A stretch of 44,898 nt of DNA, taken from the IMG/VR virus record IMGVR_UViG_3300039191_000672, positions 1 to 44,898 of that record. One strand, 5' to 3'. Source of the stretch: a virus. This document shows positions 3,949-26,759 of the stretch, in pieces. The notes below the pieces were generated by a model that saw only the letters and a list, made by a program, of their open reading frames with translations, did no database searches and was not told the DNA's origin. The position numbers and the translations under genes were made by a program. Each line of letters starts with the position of its first letter. The stretch's first letter is position 1.

Positions 3949-4192
3949 ATCTCGATTGATTTGCGAATATCAAGGTATTAAAAGGCATATTCAAGTTCCA
4001 GTATTATGCCCCAGATGCAACAGAAGGACTTTTATTTTAGATAATAGAAAAGAAAAGGGTAAATGTATAAGGTGCAGCAAAGAAATGACCGTTGATGAAT
4101 TACTCGAAGTTGTTAAGGCTGACTTTTTAGAAAAGCATAAATCTACTGATTATCAAATAAGAAATAACAGAGGTGACTGTGGCAATGCCTAA
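3932..4192 (+). CDS. Small zinc-ribbon protein
   Basis: 86 residues; TTG at 3932 lies six bases after GGAGG (3921-3925), ATG at 3938 is the alternative. Cysteine pairs CPRC (about 27-30) and CIRC (about 48-51) make a four-cysteine zinc ribbon. The remaining C-terminus is charged. Such proteins often bind nucleic acid or RNA polymerase. It overlaps both neighbours, so it is part of a tight operon with the late regulator. Confidence 0.68.
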   Translation: MEMLNESRLICEYQGIKRHIQVPVLCPRCNRRTFILDNRKEKGKCIRCSKEMTVDELLEVVKADFLEKHKSTDYQIRNNRGDCGNA

Positions 4193-4637
4193 TAAAGAGA
4201 AAGAAATTATAGAAGAGTTGTTGAATAATTATAGAAGAATTAAAGCAAAAGTTGCAACAGAAGCTATAAAAGATGCTCCTGAATATGCTTTGCAGGCTAT
4301 AAATTATAGCAAGGTAGGGTCTGGCGAAACTAACAATACATATTCTGATGTAGAAGAATTTGTTGCCAGGAAGTCAGAACAGGATAGTAAGTATAAGTGT
4401 TTAGTCAAAGCGAGGAATATTATATATCATGCCTATATTAATTTACCTATTGAAATGAGAAGAATAGTGGAATACTTTTATTTTAACGATATGTCAGTGA
4501 AAGATACGGCTAATCGAGTTGATTGTTCAGAAAATACAATTAGAAATAGAAAACCAGAAATATTTGCAGAATTAAAAGTTCACGGGTTGATGTCCGCCTG
4601 GGAGTTTTGGAATGAAAGTCGAGAATTATTGAGTTGA
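4185..4637 (+). CDS. Sigma-70 region-4-like late transcription regulator (ArpU/RinA type)
   Basis: 150 residues from the ATG at 4185 (GAGGTGA at 4170-4176). The C-terminal third, LPIEMRRIVEYFYFNDMSVK then DTANRVDCSENTIRNRK, is a sigma-region-4 helix-turn-helix. Small proteins of this layout placed just before the terminase are the late-gene activators of many Firmicutes phages (ArpU, RinA and similar). The 11-bp-phased repeats that begin 18 bases after its stop, over a -10 box, are a natural binding site. No anti-sigma or region-2 domain is present, so it should work with host RNA polymerase. Confidence 0.75.
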   Translation: MPNKEKEIIEELLNNYRRIKAKVATEAIKDAPEYALQAINYSKVGSGETNNTYSDVEEFVARKSEQDSKYKCLVKARNIIYHAYINLPIEMRRIVEYFYFNDMSVKDTANRVDCSENTIRNRKPEIFAELKVHGLMSAWEFWNESRELLS

Positions 4638-4654
4638 TTTTATTAAAAACATTA

Positions 4655-4709
4655 GTTTGGTGTAATTTTGGTATGATTTTGAGTTGTTTTTGAGTGGATT
4701 TTCTATATA
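4655..4709 (+). repeat. 11-bp-phased direct repeats, probable activator array
   Basis: Five T-tracts begin at 4656, 4666, 4677, 4688 and 4699, the first four followed by a GG or GAG element (units TTTTGGTATGA, TTTTGAGTTGT, TTTTGAGTGGA). The exact 11-bp step is one helical turn, so bound proteins would line up on one face. The array ends 7 bases before the -10 box TATAAT (4717-4722) and covers the place where a -35 box should be. Confidence 0.65.
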
Positions 4710-4728
4710 GAAAGAATATAATGATAGT
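4690..4728 (+). promoter_or_regulatory. Candidate activator-dependent late promoter
   Basis: TATAAT at 4717-4722 has no -35 box at 16-18 bp; the nearest TTGAGT (4690-4695) is 21 bp away. The missing -35 is replaced by the phased repeats, as expected for a promoter that needs an activator. It points toward the terminase and late operon. No start site is proven. Confidence 0.5.
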
Positions 4729-4785
4729 ATGAAGTAATTGTGAGCTTTTCCATTATTACTTATTTATTTCCTATTAAGGTTTTTG

Positions 4786-4819
4786 CCGGCTTAAACACTA
4801 CTGTTTAGGCTGGGTTTTT
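4786..4819 (+). terminator. Intrinsic terminator in the late leader
   Basis: An 11-bp stem CCGGCTTAAAC / GTTTAGGCTGG (two G-T pairs) with a six-base loop is followed by GTTTTT. It lies about 60 bases after the candidate late promoter and before any late gene. Transcripts would stop here as a short leader RNA of about 90 nt unless read-through is enabled. The arrangement recalls the lambda 6S RNA/tR' leader. Confidence 0.72.
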
Positions 4820-4845
4820 CATACTACCTCTATTATAATATGTGT

Positions 4846-5103
4846 GGCTCGGGCTCTATGTCCGGGCCATTACTCGTTTATAGAGCTATGAATCAGCCAT
4901 AATGTAGCACAAACATCAAGCCGCAGCTATTGGATATCATCAAAGAAAGTTGTCAGTTAAGCACTCCCACTGGCTACTTGAACCCTCAGAATTCGCGGGT
5001 CCTTCTGAGAATCTAGAGCGTTGCGGTGACGCTGAATCCCAAGAACTGGCTAGATTTCGGTAAAAAAAGTTCAATTTCATACAGTTGGAAACTTTTTATA
5101 TTT
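4846..5103 (+). ncRNA. Candidate structured RNA with pseudoknots upstream of the terminase
   Basis: A GC-rich island in AT-rich DNA with no ORF. Helices seen: GGCTCGG 4846-4852 / CCGGGCC 4862-4868, whose loop GCTCTAT (4853-4859) pairs exactly with ATAGAGC at 4880-4886 (pseudoknot); CTCAGAA 4985-4991 / TTCTGAG 5003-5009; AATCTAG 5010-5016 / CTAGATT 5050-5056 enclosing hairpin AGCGT 5017-5021 / ACGCT 5029-5033, whose loop TGCGG (5022-5026) pairs with CCGCA at 4921-4925 (second pseudoknot). TATAAT at 4834-4839 would start a transcript right at 4846, and an AAAAAGTTC/GGAACTTTTT hairpin (5064-5097) before a T-rich run would end it. I recognise no known RNA family. Rivals: an antitermination RNA, or the cos site expected upstream of a Nu1/GpA terminase. 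Confidence 0.55.
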
Positions 5104-5106
5104 TTT
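5064..5106 (+). terminator. Terminator-like hairpin at the end of the structured region
   Basis: AAAAAGTTC-AA (from 5064) pairs with TT-GGAACTTTTT (to 5097) with one bulged G and a ten-base loop, followed by the T-rich run ATATTTTTT. The stem is A/T-rich and therefore weaker than the terminator at 4786. Confidence 0.45.
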
Positions 5107-5132
5107 AAATTTGAATATTCATCTTTTATAAT

Positions 5133-5168
5133 AACTGTCATGACAGCTTTCGTGGCAGTTTTATTTTT
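5133..5168 (+). terminator. Intrinsic terminator before terS
   Basis: AACTGTCA (5133-5140) pairs with TGGCAGTT (5153-5160), eight base pairs with one G-T, followed by TTTTATTTTT. The left arm also lies in a perfect 12-bp palindrome CTGTCATGACAG. It is 77 bases before the small terminase gene, so late transcripts begun upstream must pass it. No ORF is seen between 5169 and the terS ribosome site. Confidence 0.6.
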
Positions 5169-5244
5169 ACCATCTTAAAAACATTTGTTTACAGTATTTT
5201 ACTGAACTTATGGTGATTTTAATTTCAGTGAAAAGGAGGGTCCT

Positions 5245-5802
5245 ATGAAATTCGCAGTTTCAGCCGAAGAGCTCGCAGAATTTATAGATATTTCCGAGCG
5301 CAGAGTTTATCAGTTGGTTGATGCAGAAATTATAGATAGAGTTACAGAAGGAAAATATGATCTCAAAGAATGTGCTAAAAAATATTATGAATTTAAGTTT
5401 GGAAGTGGCAATAGAGATCTGAATGAAGTAAAAGCTGAGCATGAAGAAATCAAAAAACGGATTAGTGAAATTAAACTTGCTAAGCAGCAAAATAAAGTTC
5501 ATGAAGCTTCAGATGTAGAATTTGCAATGACCAATATATTAACTACCTTTAGAAATAGAATTTTAGCAATACCTCCTAAATTATCTCCTCAAATAACAGG
5601 AATGAAAAATACAAATAAAATTAGTGATCTAATGAACTCTGAATTAAAAGAAGCTCTTGAAGAATTGTCAGGGTATGATCCATCTTTATTTGTTGATGAT
5701 GAAGATCTATACGAAGGTGATGCAGTTGAAGTCGAAAACAAAAAAGTTATTCAGGAAGGTTCTCAAAACAGTAGCACCTCCTCCGGATCTAAAAATAAGT
5801 GA
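5245..5802 (+). CDS. terS: Terminase small subunit, Nu1-like
   Basis: 185 residues with AAGGAGGG upstream. The N-terminus (VSAEELAEFIDISERRVYQL, then VDAEIIDRVTEGKYDLKECA) is the winged helix-turn-helix of the lambda gpNu1 family, which recognises the packaging site. A charged coiled stretch (about 60-90) and an acidic tail (LFVDDEDLYEGDAVEVE) follow, the latter probably binding the large subunit. It is followed by a GpA-type large subunit, the pairing seen in cos-packaging lambda-like phages. Its 3' end overlaps the large subunit gene by 77 bases. Confidence 0.85.
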   Translation: MKFAVSAEELAEFIDISERRVYQLVDAEIIDRVTEGKYDLKECAKKYYEFKFGSGNRDLNEVKAEHEEIKKRISEIKLAKQQNKVHEASDVEFAMTNILTTFRNRILAIPPKLSPQITGMKNTNKISDLMNSELKEALEELSGYDPSLFVDDEDLYEGDAVEVENKKVIQEGSQNSSTSSGSKNK

Positions 5803-7582
5803 CTGGGCTGATCAATATAGAAAATTACCTCGCGAAACATCAGCTGAACCAGGGCAATGGAGAACTAATCGAGCACCTTATCAAAGAAAAATAATGGATT
5901 CTATTAATGATCCAGAAGTTGAAAAAGTTGTTGTGATGAGCAGCTCTCAAGTTGGAAAGTCTGAAATAGTTATTAATGTTATGGGATATTATATTGATAT
6001 TGATCCGTGTCCAATGTTATTAGTGCAGCCAACTGTAGATGATGCACAGGACTTTTCAAAGAGAAGAATTGCTCCATCAATTAAAGCCACAGACTCATTA
6101 AGAGAAAAAGTTTCAGAAAGCAAAAGTAAAGATAGCAGCAATACTATTTTGATGAAATCTTTCCCTGGTGGATTTTTAGCTCTTGCCGGTTCTAACTCTC
6201 CATCTGGTTTAGCGAGTAGACCAGTGAGGATTTTATTGTGTGATGAAATAGACAGGTATCCATCTTCTGCAGGAAGTGAAGGCGACCCTTTAAAAATTGC
6301 AGAAAGAAGAACAACTACTTTCTGGAATAAGAAAAAAGTTTATGTTTCTACACCGACAATTAAAGATGCGTCCAGAATTGAAGATGAGTATAAAGCTGGA
6401 ACTCAGGAAAAGTGGAAACTTAAATGTCCTCATTGTGGAGATTATCAATATATACATCTACAAAATGTTAAATTTGAATATGAGAAAGACAAAAAAGGCA
6501 ATTATAAAGTCTGGGATTTAAAGTATGAATGCACCGAATGTCACAAAAAGTTTGATGAGCATGCCTGGAAGAATCAACCGGGAAAATGGATTGCTGAAAA
6601 TGATGATGTAATTAAGACAAGAAGTTTTCATCTTAATGCATTTGTCAGTCCCTGGACTCCATGGGAAGAAATTATGGAAGAGTGGCTGACCGTAAAGAAA
6701 GATCCGGAGCAATATAAAGTATTCAAAAATACAATGCTTGGTTTGCCCTGGGAAGAAAAAGGCGAAATTGAAGATGAAGAATTCCTTTTAAAACGACGGG
6801 AAGAATATGAAGCGGATGTGCCGGATGGGGTTCTACTTCTAACCGCTGGTGTTGACGTTCAAGATGATAGATTAGAATACGAGATAGCAGGCTGGGGGAA
6901 AGGGCAAGAGTCTTGGGGGATTGAGTATGGAATGATAATGGGCGCTCCTGATATGCCATCGACTTGGAGAATGCTTTCTGATAAATTAGACCAAACTTTA
7001 AGAACTGAGTCGGGTAAGGGGATGAAAATTGCCTGTACCTGTGTTGACTCAGGTGGTCATTTCACTTCAGATGTTTATAAATTTTGCAAAAAGAACGAAC
7101 ATAGAAGAATATTTGCTATTAAAGGTCGGGGTGGCCCGGGTATTCCTTTGATAGATAAGATTTACCGTAGCAAAAAAGAAAATGCTGCGGTTTTTATTTT
7201 GGGTGTAGACTCTGGGAAATCAACTATAATGTCAAGGCTCAAAATTAAAGAAAGAGGTGACGGATATTGTCATTTTCCTTCTAATAAAGAGAGAAATTAT
7301 GATCGCAGCTATTTTCAAGGCCTTATATCTGAAAAGTTGGTCCGGCGAAAAAGAAGTGGCCAGTATCGAATGGTTTGGGAAAAGATAAGTCCTAATCAAA
7401 GAAACGAGCCTTTAGATTTAAGAAATTATGCTTTAGCTGCACTTAATATACTCAATCCTAGCTTTGATGCACTTGAAAAAAGGTTAAAACAAAAAGGAAC
7501 TGGCAGTGTTAGTACAAGCAATTCTAAATCTAGAAGAAAAAAGAAACGTCGCGGTGTGGTTAATAAGGGTGTTTCAGTATAA
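5726..7582 (+). CDS. terL: Terminase large subunit, GpA family
   Basis: About 618 residues, close to lambda gpA (641). ATPase motor: Walker A-like SSSQVGKSE (about 72-80) and Walker B ILLCDEID with D173/E174. A CPHC...CTEC zinc knuckle lies near 236-275. The nuclease domain begins at GVDVQDDRLEYEIAGW, with a further acidic motif at CVDSGGHFTSD. It translocates DNA into the prohead and cuts concatemers. TTG 5726 fits AAGGTGA (5714-5720) five bases upstream; ATG 5720 overlaps that site. The conserved APPPDLKISDWADQYRKLP follows 16 residues later. A basic tail (SRRKKKRRG) ends the protein. Confidence 0.92.
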   Translation: MKSKTKKLFRKVLKTVAPPPDLKISDWADQYRKLPRETSAEPGQWRTNRAPYQRKIMDSINDPEVEKVVVMSSSQVGKSEIVINVMGYYIDIDPCPMLLVQPTVDDAQDFSKRRIAPSIKATDSLREKVSESKSKDSSNTILMKSFPGGFLALAGSNSPSGLASRPVRILLCDEIDRYPSSAGSEGDPLKIAERRTTTFWNKKKVYVSTPTIKDASRIEDEYKAGTQEKWKLKCPHCGDYQYIHLQNVKFEYEKDKKGNYKVWDLKYECTECHKKFDEHAWKNQPGKWIAENDDVIKTRSFHLNAFVSPWTPWEEIMEEWLTVKKDPEQYKVFKNTMLGLPWEEKGEIEDEEFLLKRREEYEADVPDGVLLLTAGVDVQDDRLEYEIAGWGKGQESWGIEYGMIMGAPDMPSTWRMLSDKLDQTLRTESGKGMKIACTCVDSGGHFTSDVYKFCKKNEHRRIFAIKGRGGPGIPLIDKIYRSKKENAAVFILGVDSGKSTIMSRLKIKERGDGYCHFPSNKERNYDRSYFQGLISEKLVRRKRSGQYRMVWEKISPNQRNEPLDLRNYALAALNILNPSFDALEKRLKQKGTGSVSTSNSKSRRKKKRRGVVNKGVSV

Positions 7583-23538: not shown

Positions 23539-23856
23539 ATGAAAGGATTTCCAAAGAAACTTAATTCAAAAGCAGATTATGAAAACATAGTCGATGATTT
23601 TGGTTACACTCAAAAAATTAAGGAAGCTTATCAAGCATTGTTAGAAACTGATAAGCATTATGTGTTTGATAAAAAATTGGCAGCAGAAACAGATAGAACT
23701 GGCCCACTCCCTAATTATAAAGTTATGAAAGAAGATGATCAGGAAACTGAGACAGTGAAAATTGTTCAGTACAAATTAGTAGATAACCCTGACTCAAAAT
23801 TAAAAGAGTTAGGATTTACAGAAGCCGAAGTTCAAGGGGTGATTGACCAATGCTAA
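23539..23856 (+). CDS. Hypothetical fibre-region protein
   Basis: 105 residues, starting right after the collar gene with GAGGAGGT upstream, and overlapping the DGR target by seven bases. It contains DFGYTQKIKEAYQALLETDK and ends with ELGFTEAEVQGVIDQC, a helix like those that close small adaptor proteins. No known domain. Its place between fibre base and diversified adhesin suggests an adaptor or chaperone, which is inference. Confidence 0.65.
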   Translation: MKGFPKKLNSKADYENIVDDFGYTQKIKEAYQALLETDKHYVFDKKLAAETDRTGPLPNYKVMKEDDQETETVKIVQYKLVDNPDSKLKELGFTEAEVQGVIDQC

Positions 23857-24887
23857 GTGTAGTAGGAGCAGATAGTCCTGCTTTTTATAATGCAGAGGGA
23901 AACATAGAAAAGACAGCCGGAGTTCAGGGAATAGATATCCCGGCCCTGGCATTAAGAATTAATAGACAGAATCTAAAAATTGAATCAGCATCAGCACTAA
24001 CTGCCGCAGACAATGATGGCAGTTTTTCTAGTTTTGCGATGGGTACTGATTATTATATCTATGCATGTCAGCCAGCTGATGGAATTGAACCAGATTTTGT
24101 ACTTTCAGCTAACTCTACTTATCCAGATGCAATACCTTCTGGTGTTACTCCCAGTGCTGATAATACTCGCAAAATCGGTGGTTTTCACTATGGCCGGGTA
24201 AGGAATAGTTCAACAGTTTCTGATGTATCAGAGAGTATTGTTCCGAACTCAGTCTGGGACCTTGTTAATCGTCCGAAATGTTCCCCTGAGGGGATGGCTA
24301 AGGTCGGTAACCTATGGGTTGATATTTATCTGGCCGGCGATGATGGCAACGGCGGTGTTGAGTCTAAGTATAACGCTACACCTATCACCGGTACAGAAGG
24401 ACTTAGTTGGTATAGTTTCGCTGAGAGATTTGCTAAGGTAGATAAGAGAATGGCATCAATGTCAGAATGGACAGCGTTAGCTCAGGGCAGTCCCCAGGGT
24501 AATGATGGTGATAACGTCAATGCTTGGTCTAATACATCAAACAGTGGTAGAGCATCAACTGGTACTGTAACAAATGCTATCAGTAATTATAATATTGTTG
24601 ATTGTGCCGGTAATGTTTGGGAATGGCTTGATGAAGTTTCAATCAGACAGGATTCTACAAGTTGGCAGTGGTATGATCCCGCAACTGACTTCGATGAAAC
24701 AATGGAGTCCGGATGGGACCAGCTTGGTGATATGTATCTCCCTAATGCAGATGGCCTTTCAGCTTTCCGCGCCGGTGGCTATTGGGCTGATGGTGTTCAC
24801 TGTGGTGCTCGTGCGTTGGGCCTGAGCCGCAGGCCTTGGCACGTGAACTCGTATATCGGGTCTCGTGGTGTCTGTGATCCTCTGTAA
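23850..24887 (+). CDS. DGR target: diversified lectin-fold tail-fibre protein
   Basis: 345 residues. The C-terminal half has the C-type lectin/FGE-sulfatase-like fold used by DGR targets: MASMSEWTALAQGSPQG, then DCAGNVWEWLDE (about 250-262), and FRAGGYWADGVHCGARAL to the end. The last 41 residues are the variable repeat plus four residues. The N-terminal half (about 1-130) is a probable trimerising or attachment part without a motif I know. It should display the variable residues on the receptor-binding face of the tail fibre. GGGGTGA ribosome site; overlaps the previous gene. No transmembrane segment. Confidence 0.9.
   Translation: MLSVVGADSPAFYNAEGNIEKTAGVQGIDIPALALRINRQNLKIESASALTAADNDGSFSSFAMGTDYYIYACQPADGIEPDFVLSANSTYPDAIPSGVTPSADNTRKIGGFHYGRVRNSSTVSDVSESIVPNSVWDLVNRPKCSPEGMAKVGNLWVDIYLAGDDGNGGVESKYNATPITGTEGLSWYSFAERFAKVDKRMASMSEWTALAQGSPQGNDGDNVNAWSNTSNSGRASTGTVTNAISNYNIVDCAGNVWEWLDEVSIRQDSTSWQWYDPATDFDETMESGWDQLGDMYLPNADGLSAFRAGGYWADGVHCGARALGLSRRPWHVNSYIGSRGVCDPL
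24764..24876 (+). repeat. DGR variable repeat (VR)
   Basis: 113 bp matching the template repeat at 25290-25402 at all 91 non-adenine positions. Twelve of the 22 template adenines are changed (six to G, counted with others to C or T). In protein terms nine of ten adenine-bearing variable codons differ. It ends 11 bases before the end of the target gene; the fully identical 3' part (ATCGGGTCTCGTGGTGTC) is where mutagenic homing would start. Confidence 0.95.
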
Positions 24888-24931
24888 TTCGTAATTTGAT
24901 AATCTGTCTTTTTATTAAGGTGTGAATATTT

Positions 24932-25267
24932 ATCAAAAATCTAACAATACATCAAAAAGTATATGATCTTATGGTTTGGTTTTTCCCGATCGTAGATAAC
25001 TTTCCAAAGTATGAAAAATTTGTACTTTGTACACAGATTAAGAACTCTGTACTTGATATCTCAAAAATTATTATTGAAGCAAATAAAACCAGAGGTAGCA
25101 AAGTTAGATTTCTACATCGGATTGATGTCAGACTTGAACAGTTAAGAATGCTAATTAGGTTTGCTCATGAAAGAAAATATCTAAACCATTCTAAATATGA
25201 AAATGTATCTAAAAAAGTTGATGAAGTCGGCCGAATGCTTGGTGGCTGGATAAAATCATGTGAATAA
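24932..25267 (+). CDS. avd: Avd, DGR accessory variability protein (non-canonical start)
   Basis: About 111 residues. Four-helix-bundle family: VYDLMVWFFPIVDNFPKYEK, then SKVRFLHRIDVRLEQLRMLI and EVGRMLGGWI, matching the helix pattern and the VGR-LG-W end of the Bordetella phage Avd. It forms a basic pentamer that binds the RT and template RNA. The first ATG (24971) lies inside helix 1 and has no ribosome site. AAGGTG at 24916-24921 points to ATA 24926 or ATC 24932; the stop TGA at 24923 closes the frame, so no ATG/GTG/TTG exists before 24971. Confidence 0.85.
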   Translation: MKNLTIHQKVYDLMVWFFPIVDNFPKYEKFVLCTQIKNSVLDISKIIIEANKTRGSKVRFLHRIDVRLEQLRMLIRFAHERKYLNHSKYENVSKKVDEVGRMLGGWIKSCE

Positions 25268-25289
25268 AATTTTGGGGTTAAGAGCGTTT

Positions 25290-25402
25290 TTTCCACGCCG
25301 GTGGCAATTGGAATGATGGTGTTCACTGTGGTGCTCGTGCGTTGAACCTGAACAACAAGCCTTGGAACGTGAACTCGAATATCGGGTCTCGTGGTGTCTG
25401 TG
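25290..25402 (+). repeat. DGR template repeat (TR)
   Basis: 113 bp, 23 bases after the avd stop. Translated in the target frame it has eight AAC/AAT codons, all but one changed in the VR. Invariant residues use codons without A (CGT, GGT, GCC, TGT, TTG), although arginine in this genome is mostly AGA. It is copied into cDNA by the RT with errors at adenines and replaces the VR. Confidence 0.95.
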
Positions 25403-25583
25403 CTCTTCATGCAAAAATCTTTCAGACAGTAGTGGTTACGGCCACTGCTGCAGTGTTTCTAGTAATGAGGAACAGGCTTTTAATCCCTGCTGAGATACTT
25501 TTTTAAGTCAATCCAGCAAAAAATTTAGATTGCTGGCCAGGCAGTAAGTATTGAAAGATAGAAAATTGTCACAGTCAGCGACT

Positions 25584-25615
25584 GCCCGTTCTCATTTGAG
25601 CGGGCTTTTAATTTT
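25584..25615 (+). terminator. Terminator-like hairpin between template RNA and RT gene
   Basis: GCCCGTTC pairs with GAGCGGGC (eight pairs with one G-T), loop TCATTT, then TTTTAATTTT. It would end the template RNA here and lower expression of the RT, whose start is 32 bases downstream. Confidence 0.6.
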
Positions 25616-25646
25616 CACCCAAATATAGAGAAAGTGGTGAGATAAT

Positions 25647-26759
25647 ATTCCAAAAAAATTTAAGAATTCATATCCAAAAATATACGATTTTGAGAACCTA
25701 TACATTTCTTATGAAAATGCTAGAAAATCTAAACGATATACTAACCAGGTCCTTAAATTTACCAATCAACTAGAAAGCAATTTAATTAATCTACAGAACC
25801 AACTTATTTGGAAAGAGTATTTACCTGGCGAATATCATCAATTTTATGTCTATGAACCTAAGCAGCGTTTAGTTATGGCACTTCCTTTTGAGGATAGAGT
25901 GGTCCAGTGGGCGGTATATAGAAATCTAAACCCTATATTCGATAAGACTTTTTATGAGCATAGCTGCGCCTGTCGGATTGGCAAAGGTACTCATTATGCA
26001 GCGGACCAGCTGCAGCACTGGATGAGAAAACTTGATAGAAGTCCAGGAGAAACTTATTATCTTAAAGCTGATGTTGCAAAATATTTTTACCGAATAGATC
26101 ACAGAACTCTTTTTGAAATTATCAAAAGAAAGATTAGCTGCAGAGATACCTTAGAGTTGATCTGGAAGATAATTAAAAAAGATGATGGTGAATTTGGAAT
26201 ACATCTCGGCGATCATTACTTTGAACAAGGGAAAATTAAGGGGATAGGAATCCCGATCGGTAATTTAACCAGTCAGCTTTTTGCAAATGTTTATCTCGAC
26301 TTCATGGATAAGTTTATAAAGCATAATCTAAGAGCTAAACACTACGTCAGATATATGGATGATTTCGTTATTCTGGGAAAACCAAAGAAAGAACTACATA
26401 CTATCAGACAGGAAATAGAAATATTTCTTGCTGATTACTTAAAACTTGAACTTAACAACAAAACTACTGTTGATAATATATGGAATGGTATAGATTTTTG
26501 CGGATATGTTACTTATCCACCATACCGAAAATTGAGAAAGAGTACAAAAAGAAAACTAAAAAGACGGCTTAAATATCTTCAAAAGAAGTACTATAAAGAG
26601 GAGGTGGGAATAGATGAAATAAATGCCAGTGTACAAAGTTACTTGGGAATATTGAAACATTGTGATAGTCATAATCTCACAATGTCAGTTATTGGCCAGT
26701 TGGAAGATGAAATACTTAATCAACTAGATTTAGAGGACGCTCTAGAACAAAGAAGTTGA
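25647..26759 (+). CDS. DGR reverse transcriptase (ATT start)
   Basis: About 370 residues. Motif A ADVAKYF with D142, the DGR signature IPIGNLTSQ (202-210) and the active site YMDDF (236-240) are all present. The conserved N-terminus (PKKFKNSYPKIYDFENLYIS, then PGEYHQFYVYEPKQR) lies upstream of the first ATG (25875), so that ATG cannot be the true start. TGA at 25638 closes the frame; only GAT AAT ATT CCA AAA follow, and ATT 25647, six bases after GGTGA, stands where relatives have the ATG of MPKK. It copies TR RNA with errors at adenines, together with Avd. Confidence 0.93.
   Translation: MPKKFKNSYPKIYDFENLYISYENARKSKRYTNQVLKFTNQLESNLINLQNQLIWKEYLPGEYHQFYVYEPKQRLVMALPFEDRVVQWAVYRNLNPIFDKTFYEHSCACRIGKGTHYAADQLQHWMRKLDRSPGETYYLKADVAKYFYRIDHRTLFEIIKRKISCRDTLELIWKIIKKDDGEFGIHLGDHYFEQGKIKGIGIPIGNLTSQLFANVYLDFMDKFIKHNLRAKHYVRYMDDFVILGKPKKELHTIRQEIEIFLADYLKLELNNKTTVDNIWNGIDFCGYVTYPPYRKLRKSTKRKLKRRLKYLQKKYYKEEVGIDEINASVQSYLGILKHCDSHNLTMSVIGQLEDEILNQLDLEDALEQRS

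Follow-up and report, generated by a model that had tools for sequence, protein, structure and literature searches.

A predicted lambda-type cos site upstream of the terminase genes of a GpA-type phage family, shared with putative satellites

Analysis of the DNA upstream of the terminase genes in a 44,898-nucleotide stretch of viral DNA (hereafter referred to as the window) was undertaken. It mainly yielded a predicted cos site at 4997–5084, which there takes the place of the single unrecognised structured RNA proposed in a preliminary description. We consider it very probable that this segment is the cos site of a phage with a lambda-type (Nu1/GpA) terminase. The features of the region are as follows:

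4173–4637, + strand: gene of an ArpU-like late regulator with a sigma-70 region 4 HTH (Pfam PF08281, E = 1e-6)
4786–4813, + strand: intrinsic terminator-like hairpin after the regulator gene (12-pair stem, T tail)
4834–4839, + strand: TATAAT, putative −10 element for a late promoter; 4815–4845 is nearly invariant in the family
4844–4870, + strand: 11-bp hairpin (z = −6.3) containing the dyad earlier offered as a rival cos
4949–4977, + strand: hairpin in which two pairs show compensatory changes when the window is compared with its relatives
4997–5007, + strand: predicted cosQ, GGGTCCTTCTG; the lambda equivalent, GGGTCCTTTCC, is in the same place, as are those of aligned GpA-type phages
5021–5042, + strand: predicted cosN, TTGCGGTGACGCTGAATCCCAA; record ends of six phages fall in the aligned segment (nhmmer E = 4.1e-6)
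5046–5058, + strand: conserved CTGGCTAGATTTC between cosN and R3, with a CTAG-like core common to most relatives
5072–5084, + strand: R3-like putative TerS-binding segment of cosB, CAATTTCATACAG, at the position of lambda R3 and of the relatives' RTTTCNTT segments
5133–5160, + strand: hairpin resembling an intrinsic terminator (11 pairs with a T tail; z = −4.1), located between cos and terS and conserved across the family
5245–5802, + strand: terminase small subunit (TerS, Nu1-like), assigned by its position before TerL and homology to satellite TerS
5657–7582, + strand: terminase large subunit (TerL), GpA family (Pfam GpA_ATPase and GpA_nuclease, E < 1e-80)

The cos candidate adjoins terminase genes of the Nu1/GpA type, with terS directly downstream. 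The window TerS has no Pfam match; it is 40% identical to the TerS of the putative satellites described below, which itself matches PHROG 57, terminase small subunit. The coordinates given for TerL are those of the open reading frame, and the actual start may lie further downstream. Judging by its position and family, the product of 4173–4637 may be a late activator. The intergenic stretch between the regulator gene and terS contains no open reading frame of 60 or more amino acids, the longest small ones between 4637 and 5245 being 46–50 amino acids. The GC-rich, gene-poor island recognised here in the preliminary description is real: its GC content is 43–52%, compared to about 23–35% around it. 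Elsewhere in the window, a diversity-generating retroelement was observed at 23850–26759, with an Mtd-like target gene (23850–24887) and a reverse transcriptase (25875–26759). Its variable repeat starts at about 24764 and its template repeat at about 25290; the two differ at 6 of 60 positions, all of them template adenines.

The profile used in the search for cos was made of 13 other cos regions and contained no sequence of the window family. When the 44.9-kb window was searched with this profile (nhmmer), positions 4997–5064 of the + strand were matched with an E value of 4.1e-6, the runner-up being at 0.93. The comparison set consisted of annotated records of phages that have a related TerL of the GpA type, several of these records being deposited from physical or inferred ends. 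For six phages (lambda, the Roseburia phage Shimadzu, Lagaffe and Pioen of Faecalibacterium, Lily of Paenibacillus, and nd4) the deposited linear record ends inside the aligned cosN (TGCGGTG...CCC). The cos site is documented for lambda, Lily and Lagaffe, and the ends of Shimadzu, nd4 and Pioen are those deposited in the records. Paenibacillus phage Lily reportedly has 5′ cohesive ends with 12-base overhangs (PMC6070908), and cos of Faecalibacterium phage Lagaffe was located upstream of terS by PhageTerm (PMC5883640). The Shimadzu record carries GTGCTTGCGAG at both ends, and the nd4 record similarly carries GCTGGCGAG.

Both the alignment and the nhmmer match place the GGGTCCTT-like cosQ motif (4997–5007) about 20–30 bp before cosN. 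The consensus of the block is, roughly, GGGTCCTTCTG, about 15 bases, TTGCGGTG...CCCAA, CTAG, about 15–20 bases and TTTCNTT. From the alignment with Shimadzu, the cohesive end is predicted to be at about 5026–5037 (GTGACGCTGAAT), a segment identical in all eight aligned family members. The R3-like CAATTTCATACAG is 47–59 bp from the predicted left nick; R3, the TerS-binding site of lambda, occupies bp 50–65 (PMC9026076). Contig ends noted in the loci include none at cosN, and two family contigs stop near window positions 4716 and 4730. Since concatemers, circles and lysogens read across cosN, contig ends away from it are neutral with respect to cos.

The window and lambda (J02459) have in common a Nu1/GpA terminase, the order cosQ-cosN-R3-terS with similar spacing, a cosQ of the form GGGTCCTT and, some 50 bp away from the known or predicted nick, an R3 or R3-like segment. 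Unlike lambda, the window has a terminator between cos and terS, a diverged R3-like segment (ATTTCATAC compared to RTTTCCTTCC) and weak two-fold symmetry of cosN, with 6 of 16 positions symmetrical versus 10 of 16 in each of lambda, Lily and Shimadzu. The weak symmetry and the divergence of the R3-like segment count against the cos assignment. The start of terS is about 220 bp from the left nick in the window and 191 bp from it in lambda. The cos site of N15 is without the IHF site, R2 and R1, and these elements are therefore non-essential (PMC9026076). The Gram-positive GpA-type phages Lily, Shimadzu, Lagaffe and Pioen, as well as nd4, resemble the window in having, roughly, GGTNCTTC...TGCGGTG...CCCAAAA...CTAG...TTTCNTT upstream of terS, which starts 79–156 bp into their records.

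A cos site had also been proposed earlier as an alternative to the structured RNA, at the dyad 4846–4868. The kind of element was right and its place was wrong: the nicks are predicted near 5026–5037, about 160–180 bp downstream of the dyad. In favour of the dyad is its strength as a GC-rich inverted repeat situated 5′ of a terS of the GpA type; however, the cos motif and, by alignment, the relatives' record ends are at 4997–5084, the pattern GGGCCATTACTCGTTTATA taken from the dyad part was found only in the nine close relatives, and no cosQ-like motif was seen upstream of the dyad. That the dyad is cosN thus appears highly improbable.

Relatives of the window were collected through the terminase. 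TerS and TerL searches revealed nine close viral contigs, and TerL revealed ten more distant loci, among which L028 and L029 are apparently one prophage. The close contigs differ from the window by 9–11% over 660 bp in full-length alignments. In this close family only 4 of 65 columns vary in 4996–5060, compared to 31 of 96 just upstream; by segment, about 3–6% of columns vary in 4815–4899 and 4996–5060, and 32% in 4900–4995. A more diverged cos block is present upstream of terS in L020, L022, L023, L025, L026 and L029. A low-identity DNA similarity search of 4640–5250 against phage records gave only chance-level matches of 22–34 bases. An 18-base pattern taken from 5021–5038 led to a second contig group (L032, L033, L039, L042 and L043), in which a 66-bp block with 86–91% identity is located directly upstream of another terS. 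The same 18-mer also matched a 435,946-bp contig (L035), which was rejected as a relative: the match is due to chance and the surrounding motif is absent.

There are good grounds to regard the second contig group, with contigs of 15–19 kb, as putative phage satellites. They are represented by L057, L058 and L059 and also by L033, L042, L065 and L066. The first 127 bases of L058 and of L059 recur at the end, which suggests that both are closed circles of about 18.4–18.5 kb. The satellites encode a DnaB-like helicase, an integrase, a replisome organiser, their own TerS and a tape measure protein of 812 amino acids; L039 also encodes a lambda-D-like head decoration protein. In the five satellite contigs searched for it, the window's TerL had no relative. 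For a satellite to have a tape measure gene seems unusual, and no description of such a gene was found among the titles and abstracts from a single literature search.

In PICIs of lambda-like phages, cosQ and cosN copy those of the helper, and the equivalent of R3 belongs to the island itself (PMC9026076). The putative satellites have the same arrangement. Their cosQ-cosN block (TTGCGG...TAGATTTCG) is identical at 39 of 39 bases to that of helper relatives such as L009, and their R3 (CGATTTCCTTCC) differs from the helper's. L065 and L066 have nearly the same TerS as L060–L064 and an unchanged R3, but their cosQ-cosN block is not the same, as though it were suited to the TerL of another helper. 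Both situations would be expected were cosN recognised by TerL and R3 by TerS. Since the block structure of the satellites is what the PICI model (PMC9026076) predicts, it provides an independent check on the cos assignment. The putative satellites differ from PICIs in encoding a full-length TerS, compared to the shorter Rpp of PICIs, and in having tape measure and head decoration proteins.

The proposal of a single structured RNA with loop pseudoknots is unsupported for the 3′ half of the region, which is cos and is conserved in sequence as far as lambda. Nor did the comparison of relatives favour the pseudoknots. In relatives, U-to-A and G-to-A changes disrupt the GCTCTAT/ATAGAGC loop helix (three broken cells, no compensatory changes). 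The CCGCA/TGCGG loop helix has no compensatory changes either; it is invariant, hence uninformative either way, and its 3′ arm, TGCGG, lies in the conserved cosN. A scan of Rfam at gathering thresholds was empty, and at relaxed thresholds the best weak match had E = 0.13, which is the level of chance. These results, together with the lack of a recognised partner gene adjoining the region, make a guide-like RNA, a CRISPR mimic or another known RNA class scarcely credible, as such a reading could draw on nothing but the hairpins and the chance-level Rfam matches. A long-range stem, 4890–4945 with 5002–5057, was also tried and rejected: its complementarity does not exceed that of shuffles (p of about 0.07–0.09 in the window, 0.28 in L004 and 0.5–0.8 in the satellites), and most of its pairs never vary.

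The individual helices described earlier fared unequally. The first hairpin stands out (z = −6.3, 0 of 200 shuffles); the whole 260-nt fold is ordinary (z = −1.3, equalled by 19 of 200 shuffles), as is the fold of 4841–4990 alone (z = −0.6). Of the terminator-like hairpins that had been proposed, the one at 5133–5160 is real-looking (z = −4.1) and the one at 5064–5105 is weak (z = −1.75). A second promoter-like site, TTTAAA-17-TATAAT (10 of 12), was observed at 5104–5132, between cos and the 5133–5160 terminator; its predicted transcript would start in or near the terminator hairpin. The TATAAT at 4834–4839 stops six bases 5′ of the dyad, as had been described, and no consensus −35 element was found for it by the promoter scan. 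In the hairpin at 4844–4870 a G-U pair is changed to A-U in L009, and the stem is otherwise invariant. The hairpin at 4949–4977 has two compensatory changes among seven independent sequences. Just upstream of the satellites' cosQ there is a hairpin with three compensatory pairs in four sequences; the pair at the helix end is unformed in two of the four. Both sets of independent sequences are small. Covariation is modest in the one phage hairpin and clear in the satellite hairpin at the equivalent place, and some base pairing in the 5′ half looks selected at these two sites. Only the window family and the satellites were seen to have the extra hairpin-bearing segment of about 150 bp that precedes cosQ.

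These observations bear on a broader alternative, in which a structured non-coding or leader RNA extends from near 4845 to about 5100–5160, contains cos within its 3′ half and affects late transcription through attenuation or antitermination ahead of terS. The near-invariance of TATAAT and of 4815–4899, the z scores of the first hairpin (−6.3) and of the pre-terS terminator (−4.1), and the two terminators that bracket the region are in its favour, as are the two compensatory changes in 4949–4977 and the satellite hairpin, where consistent one-sided changes accompany the three compensatory pairs. However, the folds of the whole (z = −1.3) and of 4841–4990 (z = −0.6) are not exceptional, the compensatory changes of the helper separate the window lineage from its relatives and are equalled in 31 of 500 shuffles, the complementarity of 4870–4947 to cos is not significant (p of about 0.07–0.09 in the window), and no Rfam match was obtained. 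We regard this alternative as possible and somewhat doubtful. A functional RNA confined to 4841–4990 is a low-to-moderate possibility. More tentatively still, and on balance improbably, the base-paired element by cosQ, found in the phage and in the putative satellites, could be a cos-linked RNA, or a hairpin extruded from the DNA, by which late transcription or DNA packaging is coupled to the joining of the ends.

The 5′ half is most simply read as a late promoter, the TATAAT in its nearly invariant context, with a leader downstream of it that extends across cos as far as terS. The TATAAT, hairpins and terminators (4786–4990 and 5133–5160) would then most likely represent the late-operon promoter together with its untranslated leader. 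In the virion the late promoter and terS would be at opposite ends of the DNA, to be joined only when the ends anneal after infection and the DNA circularises.

The cos assignment is based on the sequence, order, spacing, conservation and gene context of the elements as seen, and the binding, nicking and role of cosQ are modelled on lambda. By analogy with that phage, TerS would bind the R3-like cosB segment (about 5072–5084) and position TerL, which would make staggered nicks in cosN, about 12 bases apart (about 5026–5037), and so produce cohesive ends. The cosQ at 4997–5007 would be required for packaging to stop at the next cos of the concatemer.

A speculative RNA is thus replaced by a predicted packaging site, which indicates where the physical ends of the DNA in this phage family are likely to be, with GTGACGCTGAAT as the predicted overhang. 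In GpA-type phages of Gram-positive hosts, the arrangement of cosQ, cosN and R3 known from lambda can be recognised. The family is also linked to putative satellites carrying a copy of its cos, so that packaging of satellites by their helpers can be tested by sequence.
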